Part shown: positions 9,825-34,880 of the stretch, piece after piece | Layout of the letters: every line of letters begins with the position of its first letter | How positions within the stretch are numbered: position 1 is the first letter of the stretch | DNA from: Methylobacter tundripaludum | Lineage (GTDB): Bacteria > Pseudomonadota > Gammaproteobacteria > Methylococcales > Methylomonadaceae | DNA: 64,000 nucleotides | Assembly (NCBI RefSeq): GCF_002934365.1 | Contig: NZ_PTIY01000006.1 | Span: 124,001-188,000, forward strand | Direction of reading: 5' to 3' | The notes under the pieces: generated by a model | What the model was told of the DNA's origin: nothing | Databases searched by the model: none | What the model saw: the letters and a program-made list of their open reading frames with translations, nothing else | Translations under genes and position numbers: made by a program

Positions 9825-11519
9825 TCATACAAGCTCGACGCCTGGACGCATTGCTCCTCCCATAGCCGGAGCGCCGGAACCTTGGGTAAATGACATCGCC
9901 AGATAAGCGGGGGGATCTTCACCCAGCAATCGATACAAATTAGCCAAATTAAGCCGGAATTGTTTCTCAAAGTTGCTGACCGCTTCGCCCGGATTATAAT
10001 CGCCAAACCACCAAAACCAGTCGGACCCTTCACAAACGGCTAACTGAAGCTCGGCCTGTTGCGCTTGTTTATCCGTTAACCTACCGGCGGCAATGACTTT
10101 GTCAAACGTCCATTTAGCATCCCCGAGCATATCCCAACCTCGATTCTTGTCCGCATCGCCTATCCAGGTCGAAAAAGTGCCGTAAACCCAACTGCCCGCA
10201 ACCATTTTCGACAGCGGCTTAACGTCAACATTCTTGCGCAGACATTCCGAAAAAGTCGTTAATTCAATAGCCTGATGATCGGCCAGACGATGATACAGGC
10301 CGTTGAGGAAGTAATAGCCATTAGCAGGAAAATACTCCCAGGCATTCTCGCCGTCCATAATAATTGAAACCACCTTGTCTCCGGCTTCATGCATGGCAAT
10401 ATTTTCCAGATGGTGGATCAGATCGCCGACCGCATCATCGGCATGCCATTTTGAATACTCAAAACCAATAAGATCGGATAAGCCGTCATCCCGGAAAAAG
10501 CAGGCTATATCGGTTTTTTTCAGTTTAAAAGGATGATGAATCCCTGTGTGTTTGGCGTTTTCAGGAAGATTCAAACTATTATGCAGCACGGACCCGCCGC
10601 TAGCCGCCCAATCAAAACCGAAGTCACCCAATATTTTTAAGGTCTGCTCGCTGATGCTGCCTTCCGAAGGCCAGCATCCTTTAGGCTCAAAACCAAAAAA
10701 CCGTTTAAACGTCTGCACGCCCTTTTCAAGATGCCACCATACGCGCTCCTTGCCTCCCGGATAGGCATCCAACTCAGGCAAAGGAGCACTCGGCATAGCC
10801 TCATGGGTGGAGTTCAAGTCCAGCAACAACGGCATGATAGGATGGGCGTAAGGCGTCACGGAAAGTTCAACCTGCCCTTTTCTGGCTAATGCCTTGTATC
10901 TACAGATAATACTGGTCAGCTGCTCGGCAATGACTTCTACAATTTCAATCCTGTCGTGCATGGTATAGCCGGAGCCTTTCTCTATCAGGCGTTTTATTCG
11001 GCTATCCGCCAACTTTATCGTTTCACCCATCCAAACCAAATGATACCAAACCAGAATATCGCTGATAAATTGAGAATTGACATACGTCAAAGAGTCGTAA
11101 TGCTGCTCAAGCCATTCGGCCATTTCAATCAATCTTTTAAAGGTCGGATAACGGTTGATTTGCCGTTCCCTGTTCGCACGCATGCAGTCTTTAACCAGTT
11201 TCATGCGCTCTTCAGGATCCGCCGGAATACTCGGGTTAACCAAAGCCGCCAATAAAGGATCGGTAATCGAAATGCGGTCATGCAAATAGCCGTTGACTTG
11301 CCGGGCATATTCCTCGATTTGTTCCAGAAGTATAGGCGCGAAATTCACCACCGCCTTAGCCTTCGGCACGGCTTCCAGATGCGCCGCCATATCCACATAG
11401 TCTTTAATAACATGCAGATAGGTCCACGGCAGCTTGAATTCTCCCGTCTGTAAATCCCTGTATTCCGGCTGGTGCATATGCCAGCACAAGACCAGTTTCA
11501 GTTTTCTTTTATCTGACAT
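9825..11519 (-). CDS. glycoside hydrolase family 57 protein, alpha-amylase-like
   Basis: The GH57 catalytic domain opens with [14 protein letters not shown], the family's first conserved region, and continues with [14 protein letters not shown] near residue 275, which carries the likely catalytic Glu, and [12 protein letters not shown], which carries the Asp/Glu region. The ATG at 11519 is preferred ([14 protein letters not shown] upstream), giving 564 residues. The start lies inside the last codons of glgC (11-base overlap), so the two are translationally coupled. GH57 enzymes act on alpha-1,4-glucans as amylases, glucanotransferases or branching enzymes. Which of these applies cannot be told here. 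Confidence 0.9.
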
Positions 11520-31828: not shown

Positions 31829-32884
31829 ATGTATAAACGTATCCTTGATCACCTTAACGGCGCAATCTTGTTATTTGATCGCGATCTGAGCCTCACTTAC
31901 CTTAATTCAGCCGGAGAAATTCTGCTTGCCGACAGCTCGCGCCACTTGGTGGGGCTCAGCGCTAATGAGATATTCAAATCCTCCGATCCGGCATTGCTGC
32001 TTAATTTGCAGCAATGTTTAACAATGGCGGAACCGCTGCTGGATCGGGAGCTTATTCTGGACCGCATGACCCACAGCATCACCATCAATTTTAGCGCGAC
32101 GCCGTTGTTGAAGGATGAGCAGGTCGACGAAATCCTGGTCGAATTACAACAAGTGGACAATCACCTGCGCATATCCAAGGAAGAACGCTTGTTAACCCAG
32201 CAGAATACCGCCAGAATGCTGGTCAGGGGGCTGGCGCATGAAATCAAGAACCCCTTGGGCGGCTTGCGCGGGGCGGCGCAATTACTGGATCTGGAATTAC
32301 GCGACCAGGATCTCAAGGAATACACCCGGATTATCATTGCCGAGTCCGACCGCCTGCAAGGCTTGATGGATAAAATGCTCGGCCCCAATAAATTGCCCAA
32401 TAAAAAGGCCATCAATATTCACGAAGTGCTGGAGCGGGTCAGGCAGCTGGTTCAAGCCGAGTCCAACCTGACCATTAAATCGGACTACGACCCCAGTATC
32501 CCGGACATCTATGCCGATAAAGACCAACTGATTCAGGCTATTTTAAATATCGCTAAGAACGCCGTTCAAGCACTGAACGGGGAAGGCGACATCCTGATCA
32601 AAACCCGAATCCACCGGCAAGTGACCATTGGCCGCAAACGCTATAAATTGGCCGTGAAGTGCGACATTATCGATAACGGTCCGGGCATCGACGCCGATAT
32701 GATGAACCAGATTTTTTATCCCATGATCACCGGGCGCGCCGACGGCACAGGACTGGGTTTGTCGATAGCCCAAGCGTTGATCAATCAGCATAACGGTTTG
32801 ATTGAATGTACCAGCGAGCCTGGAAACACGGTGTTTTCAATCTTCTTACCCATTATTTCACAGGGAGAGACCGACAATGACTAA
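31829..32884 (+). CDS. ntrB: nitrogen regulation sensor kinase NtrB (GlnL)
   Basis: NtrB phosphorylates or dephosphorylates NtrC in response to PII proteins. The 351-residue cytoplasmic protein has an N-terminal PAS domain (LNGAILLFDRDLSLTYLNSAGE), the phosphoacceptor box LAHEIKNPLGGLRGAAQLL near residue 138, the N box ILNIAKNAVQAL and the ATP-lid motifs DNGPGID and GTGLGLSIAQALI. There are no membrane segments, as expected. Its last 8 bases overlap ntrC. A sigma-54-like promoter lies 47 bases upstream. Confidence 0.96.
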   Translation: MYKRILDHLNGAILLFDRDLSLTYLNSAGEILLADSSRHLVGLSANEIFKSSDPALLLNLQQCLTMAEPLLDRELILDRMTHSITINFSATPLLKDEQVDEILVELQQVDNHLRISKEERLLTQQNTARMLVRGLAHEIKNPLGGLRGAAQLLDLELRDQDLKEYTRIIIAESDRLQGLMDKMLGPNKLPNKKAINIHEVLERVRQLVQAESNLTIKSDYDPSIPDIYADKDQLIQAILNIAKNAVQALNGEGDILIKTRIHRQVTIGRKRYKLAVKCDIIDNGPGIDADMMNQIFYPMITGRADGTGLGLSIAQALINQHNGLIECTSEPGNTVFSIFLPIISQGETDND

Positions 32885-34307
32885 AGCCGAAACTGTCTGG
32901 ATCATCGATGACGACAAATCCATACGCTGGGTCGTGGAAAAAGCCCTGCAAAAAGCGGACATCAACACTCGCAGTTTTTCCGGTGCGGCCGACTTGCTGA
33001 ACGCATTGCAGGACGACTCGCCCGATGCGCTGATTACCGATATCCGTATGCCTGACATGGATGGGCTGGAACTGTTGAACAAGATTCAACTGAGCCACCC
33101 GAATCTGCCGGTGATTGTGATGACCGCTCATTCCGATCTGGAAAGCGCCGTCGCCGCATTCCACGGCGGCGCTTTCGAATACCTGCCCAAGCCCTTTGAT
33201 ATTAAAGAAGTCGTCGATCTTGCCCATAGAGCCTGCATCCATAGCCGGCAGCAGCAAATTGAGACGGTTTCGGATACCCATACGGTCGAGGAAACGACGC
33301 CGGAAATTATCGGCGAAGCGCCGTCGATGCAGGAAGTGTTCCGCGCAATCGGTCGGCTGGCAAGATCGCAGATCACCGTACTGATCAACGGCGAGTCGGG
33401 AACCGGCAAGGAATTGGTCGCCAAAGCCCTGCATCGGCACAGCCCCAGAGCCGACAACCCGTTCATCGCCCTGAATATGGCCGCGATCCCCAAAGACCTG
33501 ATGGAATCGGAACTGTTCGGCCATGAAAAAGGCGCGTTTACCGGCGCGCAATCGCGCCGCGCCGGACGCTTTGAACAAGCCGACGGCGGCACCCTGTTTC
33601 TTGATGAAATCGGCGACATGCCCGCCGAACTGCAAACCCGTTTATTGCGCGTACTGGCCGACGGCGAGTTCTATCCGGTCGGGTCGTATTCATCGGTCAA
33701 AGTCGATGTACGCATTATCGCCGCCACTCACCAGAACCTTGAAACGCTGGTTGAGCAAGGCCGCTTTCGGGAAGATTTATTCCACCGCCTGAACGTGATC
33801 CGCATCCACATCCCGCCGCTACGCGAGCGCAAGCAGGATATCCCCTTGCTGCTGCGCCACTTTTTAAATCAGGCGGCCGTTGAACTCAATACGGAAGTTA
33901 AAATCCTAAAACCCGAAGCGGAGGCTTTTTTAAGCACGCTGGACTGGCCGGGCAATGTCAGGCAACTGGAAAACAGCTGTCGCTGGCTGACCGTGATGGC
34001 GTCGGGCCGGGAAATTCATTTACACGACTTGCCGCCCGAGTTGCTCAATACCCTATCGGAAAAAAACGAGACTGAAAACGGCTGGGAAGCATTACTGAGG
34101 AGCTGGATAGACCAGCAATTGCTGTTGAACTCTCATCTGGCGCATGGGTACGAGGGTGAAATCGCCAAACACATCATTCCGACGGTTGAAACCATTTTAA
34201 TTAAGGCCGCGTTAAATTTTACCCACGGCAAACGCCATGAAGCGGCTATTTTATTGGGCTACGGCAGAAACACCCTGACCCGTAAAATTCAGGAGCTGGG
34301 GATATAA
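32877..34307 (+). CDS. ntrC: nitrogen regulation response regulator NtrC (GlnG)
   Basis: NtrC is the enhancer-binding activator of sigma-54 promoters under nitrogen limitation. The 476-residue protein has a receiver domain with phosphorylatable Asp in [12 protein letters not shown] (near residue 54), an AAA+ domain with [15 protein letters not shown], the sigma-54-contact loop [24 protein letters not shown] and a C-terminal Fis-type helix-turn-helix ending [25 protein letters not shown]. The ATG at 32877 follows AGGGAGAG and overlaps the ntrB stop, so synthesis is coupled. Two small RNA genes follow within 150-400 bases. Confidence 0.97.
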
Positions 34308-34427
34308 CTGTCCAGACGGGTCTTTTATTCCGCCGTGAGCTGCGTTGCACGGGGCAACCGATGAATAACGATCGCCCAATGTAGGCGAATACTTACGGCA
34401 ATTAGAACACTGCGACAATATGCCACA

Positions 34428-34456
34428 TTCCATCATTTATCATTTATCGCTAATAT
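34428..34456 (+). promoter_or_regulatory. promoter of small RNA gene 1
   Basis: TTCCAT at 34428 and TAATAT at 34451 are separated by exactly 17 bases. The same arrangement is conserved at 34661 and 34829, with a conserved CACATTCC block overlapping the -35 position. No sigma-54 element was found here. Confidence 0.55.
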
Positions 34457-34462
34457 ATATAC

Positions 34463-34544
34463 AACTCTTGAGATGCAAATTTCCTCCTCGAAATTCAGAG
34501 TTTTATATCCTTTTTAATGCGGCCTAACCGGCCGCATTTTTTTT
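34463..34544 (+). ncRNA. predicted small RNA 1 downstream of ntrC
   Basis: The predicted transcript of about 82 nucleotides starts with CAACTCTTGAG and folds as AACTCT...AGAGTT (outer stem) around AATTTC-CTCCTC-GAAATT, which leaves CUCCUC in the loop. That loop is complementary to Shine-Dalgarno sequences (GAGGAG). A classic terminator, ATGCGGCC-TAACC-GGCCGCAT followed by eight Ts (34517-34544), closes the gene. There is no open reading frame. A second copy 233 bases on keeps the promoter spacing, hairpin, loop and terminator while other bases differ, which is a strong sign of a functional RNA. Ends are inferred, not measured. Confidence 0.8.
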
Positions 34545-34660
34545 GCCTGCAAGAAAGTCATTTACTCCCGGTAATCCGGCTTAATCAACCCGTTTTTTGC
34601 TTACGATAAAACAATCCGCTACCGGTTCTGCGACATTCTGACACGCGGCAATTTGTCACA

Positions 34661-34689
34661 TTCCGTTACTTAACATTTGCCGTTAATAT
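34661..34689 (+). promoter_or_regulatory. promoter of small RNA gene 2
   Basis: TTCCGT at 34661 and TAATAT at 34684 with a 17-base spacer, preceded by CACA as in copy 1. Confidence 0.55.
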
Positions 34690-34695
34690 AGCTGC

Positions 34696-34778
34696 AACTC
34701 TTGAGATGCAAACTTCCTCCTCGGAATTCAGAGTGTTATATCCTTCTCTAATGCGGCCTAATCAGCCGCATTTTTTTT
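34696..34778 (+). ncRNA. predicted small RNA 2 (tandem paralogue)
   Basis: This copy is close in sequence to RNA 1: it shares AACTCTTGAGATGCAAA, TTCCTCCTC, AATTCAGAGT and the terminator ATGCGGCC...GCCGCAT with eight Ts (34751-34778). The inner stem changes from TTTC/GAAA to TTCC/GGAA, shifting by one base but still exposing UCCUC in the loop. The terminator loop also differs (TAATCA against TAACC). Such structure-preserving differences argue for selection on the RNA rather than a recent plain duplication. Confidence 0.8.
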
Positions 34779-34828
34779 GCCTGCGATAAACCGGTTCCGT
34801 CGCATGCCGACACACGGGACAAGCTACA

Positions 34829-34880
34829 TTCCATTGCTCAACATTTGTCTCCGATACAACTGCAACTGCTGGCGTGCGAC
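34829..34880 (+). other. degenerate third copy of the small-RNA unit
   Basis: TACATTCCAT, a 17-base spacer and CGATAC line up with the promoters of the two intact copies, and TGCAACTGCTGGCGTGC aligns with the start of the RNA. Homology then fades: there is no CTCCTC loop and no terminator. It looks like a decayed third tandem copy. Confidence 0.55.

Follow-up and report, generated by a model that had tools for sequence, protein, structure and literature searches.

An apparently undescribed small RNA family, widespread in gammaproteobacterial methanotrophs, appears to be under the control of the RegB/RegA redox sensor and not of nitrogen

Introduction

The small RNA (sRNA) NrsZ of Pseudomonas is encoded next to ntrC and requires both NtrC and sigma-54. 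The two methanotroph sRNA genes described here also lie next to ntrC, but neither an NtrC nor a sigma-54 site was found in the family to which they belong, whose adjacency to ntrC was observed in Methylobacter loci alone (below). A different likeness is to NmsRA and NmsRB of Neisseria meningitidis, which are tandem, near-identical sRNAs with a UC-rich single strand and a UC-rich loop, both anti-Shine-Dalgarno in character (as described in the cited parts of PMC5362039); the likeness is one of description rather than of sequence comparison, and those RNAs are linked to RelA and the stringent response, whereas a RegA-type box is present here. PcrZ of Rhodobacter sphaeroides is induced via PrrA, a RegA orthologue, has a PrrA consensus in its promoter and represses mRNAs by direct pairing (the review PMC8139620, in the passages cited). 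It is a single alphaproteobacterial sRNA for photosynthesis genes, whereas ours is a multi-copy family of gammaproteobacterial methanotrophs, and we claim no homology. Each half of the mechanism considered below, PrrA dependence and UC-rich pairing, is thus already known separately.

The same RegB/RegA two-component system has been studied in Methylomonas sp. DH-1, where the main text of PMC13274454 reports that it is necessary for growth on methanol, that RegA is found by ChIP at the feo promoter, and that RegA controls tbdr and tonB indirectly, via unidentified intermediaries; the words “motif”, “sRNA” and “small RNA” do not occur in that main text. RegA motifs are known to be degenerate, and the parts of PMC5506826 used here quote SSGNVRDNHYSNCSS for RegA, YSCGGC(5)GWCRMA for PrrA and GNGRCRTTNNGNCGC for RegR, and state that no RegA motif could be derived for Acidithiobacillus ferrooxidans. 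The promoter box described below is a specific candidate RegA site for gammaproteobacterial methanotrophs.

Results and Discussion

Two sRNA units and a relic downstream of ntrC

The stretch of DNA that was analysed (the window) is 64,000 nucleotides long and corresponds to C6:124001-188000 of a 4.18 Mb Methylobacter tundripaludum genome; positions below are those of the window and all features are on its plus strand unless stated otherwise. Its ntrB and ntrC genes (NCBIfam equivalogs, over cut-off; ntrC, a neighbour outside the RNA family, lies at 32877–34307 and matches TIGR01818 with 729.6 bits) are followed by two repeats, at 34412–34556 and 34645–34790, and then by a promoter relic. A 101-nt direct repeat (34412/34645, 84% identity, spacing 233) and a 42-nt direct repeat (34515/34749, 90% identity, spacing 234) agree with the terminator scan, which finds a terminator-like site of nine pairs in unit 1 and of eight in unit 2 (five such sites in the scanned region versus 1.8 in shuffles), and this bears out the original prediction of two units 233 bases apart, each with its own terminator. 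That both terminators share the stem GCGGCC/GGCCGC and a run of eight Ts is right for the T8 run, but the stem of unit 2 is GCGGC/GCCGC.

Comparison with other members places RNA starts at positions consistent with 34462 and 34695, so that the sRNA genes, both of A-type, span 34462–34544 (unit 1; 104.9 bits with covariance model R1 and 92.4 bits with R2, below) and 34695–34778 (unit 2; 110.7 and 94.5 bits). Upstream of unit 1 lies a putative proximal activator box of RegA type, GCGACAATATGCCACATT (34412–34429), which with a matrix score of 32.4 is the top site in the window, and a −10-like TAATAT (34451–34456); unit 2 has a putative distal site recognised by promoter comparison, GCGACATTCTGACAC (34630–34644), a proximal box, GCGGCAATTTGTCACATT (34645–34662, matrix score 29.1), and again TAATAT (34684–34689). 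Both −10-like elements were read from the sequence and align among the promoters. The UC-rich linkers, unpaired in the predicted folds, are at 34503–34515 and 34736–34749 (the latter AUAUCCUUCUCU), and sequence and scan together place the intrinsic terminators with their T8 runs at 34516–34544 and 34750–34778.

A third unit, at 34814–34880, aligns to the other two through a box remnant, a weak −10 and an RNA start, retaining “ACATTCCATTGCTCAACATTTG” and the start CTGCAACT; it has no hairpin or terminator, and neither R1 nor R2 matches there. It had been described as a decayed copy that keeps only promoter and RNA start, which is a fair reading because G015, another genome, carries three complete copies next to the same downstream gene, in place of the window's two copies and relic. 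Two minor features of the locus are that GCCTG directly after the T8 run (34545–34549 and 34779–34783) recurs across genera although it lies beyond the terminator, and that a gene for a FUN14-family protein (PF04930; 35007–35354, minus strand) lies beyond the sRNA array and recurs in its vicinity in several relatives.

The units belong to an RNA family of one methanotroph family

A 20-nt core of the units was used as a seed to scan the GTDB contig collection. It occurs exactly in 29 loci, and since the titles of 28 of these name Methylobacter, Crenothrix, Methylococcaceae or Methylococcales, the units are not chance sequences; the 29th (L008) shows neither box nor terminator and was dropped, as were two duplicates. 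In alignment A2 each of the 31 rows has the stretch “CAACTCTT” in front of the core, although the search pattern did not include it, one row with a C-to-T change at its first base. Covariance model R1 matches 137 of the 301 genomes of the order, and R2, which draws on 45 members and assigns base pairs to the outer stem and the terminator alone, matches 189 of them (144 of the 228 good genomes and 28 of the 50 genera), every matched row in the order survey belonging to the window's own family. Class-wide, R2 matches 2 of 369 genomes, the window's own and one of its family. The two units are therefore members of an RNA family that, within the genomes sampled, is limited to a single family of methanotrophs, and the covariance-model search that had been suggested as a check found relatives across many genera of that family. 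The window's own genome has further R2 matches on contigs C2, C11 and C21 (those on C11 and C21 being R2 training members), and copies are often tandem, with two to four in the arrays examined, mostly 170–240 nt apart.

Rfam 15 gives no match at gathering score in the window and no family match in six further loci, where a cobalamin riboswitch elsewhere in L069 is the one hit; the near-misses at the units, AaHKsRNA82 with 27.1 bits against a gathering score of 51.4 and ncS025 with 26 bits against 46 (E 0.017), fall far short and were rejected. We also found no description of the family among the best matches, main texts only, in the openly available literature on small RNAs of Methylobacter, Methylococcales, Methylomonas and Methylotuvimicrobium, on methanotroph sRNAs and on methanotroph RegB/RegA; PMC12403871, in the part cited, concerns regulatory elements of Methylosinus sporium 5, a type II methanotroph. 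As originally suspected, the sRNA family is apparently undescribed, and it is widespread in gammaproteobacterial methanotrophs.

Conserved parts of the RNA

The predicted RNA of about 83 nt has an outer stem enclosing an inner hairpin that varies among members, followed by a UC-rich linker in single-stranded form and the terminator. Taken without the terminator, the nested hairpins of the two units do not exceed shuffles in stability (z −0.28 and 0.00), and we therefore drew structural support from comparison. Alignment A4 holds 44 promoter-plus-RNA sequences (7 of the 51 members were left out of it, and 6 of 51 out of A5, mostly as near-duplicates), and in it 93.7% of the cells of outer stem and terminator are paired, with 23 cells changed on both sides compared with 4.4 in shuffles (none of 500 shuffles being as high); controls in which stem and terminator were slid are far lower, pairing in 27–55% of cells. 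The lack of base-pair covariation had been named beforehand as the observation that would count against the RNA, and computation finds covariation in outer stem and terminator. An initial consensus fold in which UGAG was joined with CUCG had been derived from near-identical sequences and gave way to the outer stem with a variable inner hairpin.

In single folds the inner hairpin varies in sequence while its arms compensate (26 different 5′ arms among 51 members, by a rough parser). The parser misplaces the stem in a few rows (e.g., window 34695 and L079), so that this count and those of loops and linkers are approximate. The proposal of a nested hairpin exposing a CUCCUC loop holds for the minimum-energy fold of unit 1 (loop at 34484–34489), but the minimum-energy loop of unit 2 is UCCUC, and as a conserved core or functional end the loop had to be given up: it is lost in divergent members, CCUCC or CUCCU being present within the hairpin in 28 of the 51 members, by eye chiefly those of a Methylobacter-like clade, as against 47 of 51 with a UC-rich, anti-Shine-Dalgarno-like linker before the terminator. 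The anti-Shine-Dalgarno potential predicted for these RNAs would thus reside mainly in the linker, which, together with tandem near-identical copies, is also what an NmsR-like mode of action would call for. The unit 1 linker (CCUUUUU) is a weak anti-Shine-Dalgarno sequence; units of family f4 have linkers such as AUCCUCCUCUU. The linker is matched approximately in conservation by a GAGAUGC stretch that forms one side of the internal loop.

A promoter box at fixed spacing

The best-conserved element of all is the promoter box GCGRCAATNTGYCACATT, 31–33 nt upstream of the RNA, often preceded by a second GCGRC-N5-GYCRC site that is missing in several copies, including unit 1 of the window. The original prediction did not include this box, which points to RegA; TTCCRT, which it had read as a −35 hexamer, is the end of this longer and far better conserved box. 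The proximal box is present in 44 of 44 A4 promoters, three of which (L108, L110 and L112) were found via the box itself, and in all 48 cmsearch matches (lowest score 22.9). Computed outside the training set, it accompanies 52 of 52 members: in test loci outside the training rows, all 14 R2 matches have it, 32 nt before the RNA in 13 and 33 nt in one, and all 38 further R2 matches, which are closer relatives and in part from genomes of training rows, have it at 31–32 nt. The latter count leaves out a duplicate row and eight rows used in training, among them L194 (a duplicate of L047) and L199, which were not in the 14-match test and were covered in the further-match search.

A matrix score of 15 is reached by 28 of 2967 random windows and, when strong sites are avoided, by 3 of 3000. 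The double-box pattern with at most three mismatches matches five times in the window's own genome and its reversed control not at all, and the exact box occurs in 273 of the 301 genomes of the order, matches to the reversed control being rare. By our reading, the 26 exact boxes of ten genomes lie at window-type sRNAs (12), at sRNAs of a type divergent from regB (6), at sRNA-like units of family f4 (4) and at leaders of HEAGHA-motif genes (2), and the remaining two lie at a phasin-like gene (by eye), whose relative in the window's own genome has no Pfam or NCBIfam match, and at a site that precedes TonB- and ExbD-like genes.

Link of the box to RegB/RegA

The box resembles the published motifs of RegA-family regulators. 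With at most one mismatch, the RegR, PrrA and RegA motifs are found in 25, 32 and 44 of the 44 promoters, versus 0.8%, 1.0% and 20.5% of 2000 random windows, and with at most two mismatches the RegR and PrrA motifs are each found in 44 of 44, versus 4.5% and 7.6%; the 44 promoters are related sequences, so these fractions are not independent. The window's own genome encodes one full-length RegA-family regulator (184.8 bits) adjoining a RegB-like kinase (225.3 bits). Neither protein reaches its NCBIfam equivalog cut-off; the kinase has GGASNPI, the motif reported for RegB of Methylomonas sp. DH-1 in the main text of PMC13274454. RegA (E at most 1e-30) is present in 279 of the 301 genomes of the order. 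Kinase presence was uninformative as a test (293 of 301 genomes at 1e-20, none over cut-off).

The box is genomically linked to regBA, as computed in two ways. Adjacency, defined as a box at most 400 bp upstream of the kinase or at most 2.2 kb upstream of RegA, was surveyed in 70 of the 273 box-bearing genomes (150 boxes listed), 61 of which have a listed regulator position; among the boxes listed, an exact box lies upstream of regB in 31 of the 61 (16 by kinase position and 15 by RegA position), in all 31 cases facing away from regB. This arrangement spans families f1, f4 and f7; the other 30 genomes, including 13 of 14 of family f7, have no listed box beside regB. Among the 228 good genomes, 211 of 220 with RegA have the box versus 3 of 8 without it (Fisher p 2e-5, kinship ignored), and in genus g34 the box is present in 7 of 7 genomes with RegA and in none of 3 without. 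The exceptions are nine RegA-positive genomes without the box and the good RegA-negative genomes G132, G191 and G253 with it; several incomplete RegA-negative bins also have it. Autoregulation of regB by the box was considered and set aside, as the box faces away and a divergent sRNA-like unit follows it in the examined loci. In G028 the regB-divergent type of sRNA adjoins an msrA-like gene (named by eye) and not regB, so adjacency to regB may partly reflect inherited gene order.

The feo promoter failed as a positive control. No box is present within 1.5 kb either side of feoB at 20 loci of 15 genomes, where the best box score is 12.8 versus at least 21.3 for the training sites. The degeneracy of RegA motifs softens this objection without removing it.

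Proposed mechanism and alternatives

We consider it probable that the units are RegA-activated sibling sRNAs that act in trans by pairing with ribosome-binding sites. A RegA-type redox response regulator would probably bind one or two GCGRC-N5-GYCRC sites overlapping the −35 region, a position judged from the spacing, and RegA~P would activate a promoter that has a −10 but no good −35. The UC-rich linker of the RNA would most likely cover the ribosome-binding sites of its targets, joined in the Methylobacter-like clade by the C-rich loop, and such pairing may lower translation when the quinone/NADH pool is over-reduced. If this is true, an RNA layer is added to the energy-metabolism balance of methane-eating bacteria. 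The sRNAs would then be candidate intermediaries for the indirect effects of RegA on tbdr and tonB, and with the family tied to the redox system this gap in the explanation of the DH-1 results becomes directly testable.

What switches the sRNAs on could be judged differently. The nitrogen role first envisaged, with NrsZ-like control through NtrC and sigma-54, draws on the position of the units, which immediately follow ntrC in the window and in further Methylobacter loci, but we regard it as very improbable: none of the 44 promoters is within two mismatches of the NtrC or sigma-54 motifs, which agrees with the earlier failure to see a sigma-54 site, and the suggested check of whether relatives lie by ntrC gave NtrC matches in 8 loci of a set of 28 and in 1 of a set of 33, all titled Methylobacter or of genus g1. 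NtrC was not matched in the loci of other genera, stretches of at most 8–20 kb whose length limits the weight of this absence. That another regulator, perhaps an oxidative-stress factor or other Fis-type HTH_8 protein, binds the box of the same sRNA family, its association with RegA being inherited gene order, would accommodate the box-free feo loci, the sRNA by the msrA-like gene of G028 and the boxes in some RegA-negative genomes; we think this unlikely in view of the match to three published RegA-family motifs, the joint loss of box and RegA within g34 and the regB adjacency in three families. The RegB/RegA redox sensor thus seems the likeliest switch for the sRNA family.

The RNA might also act otherwise than by pairing with mRNAs. 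It could titrate a protein or sponge other RNAs, with the GAGAUGC side and the UC linker as docking sites, as the similar conservation of these two parts and the several near-identical copies in many genomes would allow; UC-rich single-stranded anti-Shine-Dalgarno stretches are pairing sites in the comparable NmsR siblings (PMC5362039, as cited above), and we hold this reading to be quite unlikely. An AUG near RNA position 11–14 in 46 of the 51 members could begin a short peptide gene, an idea that we reject as scarcely credible: frame, length and sequence are not conserved, 5 of 51 members lack the AUG, and by eye no ribosome-binding site precedes it.

A broader and speculative reading, which we offer as doubtful, is that RegA acts largely via RNA in gammaproteobacterial methanotrophs, one conserved promoter module driving several sRNA subfamilies (the window type, the regB-divergent type, an mmoX-adjacent unit and the leaders of HEAGHA-motif genes). 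These sRNAs would be the missing intermediaries through which RegA indirectly controls iron uptake and, possibly, the methane monooxygenase switch.

Other box-driven units

Several further units lie behind the same box. In the mmoX region of the window's own genome, on contig C22 (L143:11547-11564 and 11363-11380), and in L144 (3117-3134 and 2947-2964), two box-driven units sit between an mmoX-like gene (PF02332) and a phasin-like gene (by eye; no family match); they are a diverged sRNA with a terminator and the phasin-like gene itself, and the arrangement in G028 is alike. The box also occurs, in either orientation, some 60 bp upstream of a gene for a sigma-54 activator that may be mmoR (L143:4063-4083 and L144:11245-11265), and in G028 it comes after the genes for soluble methane monooxygenase and one that is GroEL-like (by eye). 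Elsewhere, sRNA-like units with a terminator stand directly upstream of paralogous small HEAGHA-motif ORFs (L145:1390-1546, L110, L112, L146 and L149), the one ORF tested having no Pfam or NCBIfam match; these units may serve both as leaders and as free RNAs.

The second type of sRNA behind the same box (UAACUUUUAAGGCUC...UUAUAUUCUUCCUAA, with a GGCGG terminator) was seen in L157:3561-3690, L158, L159, L160, L156 and L147, with two copies in L147, and is divergent from regB except in L156. A further terminator-bearing unit follows a GTGACAATATGYCRCATT box in L154:1344-1361 and L162:1591-1608, and in G128 the unit behind this form of the box adjoins a gene that by eye resembles PEP synthase.
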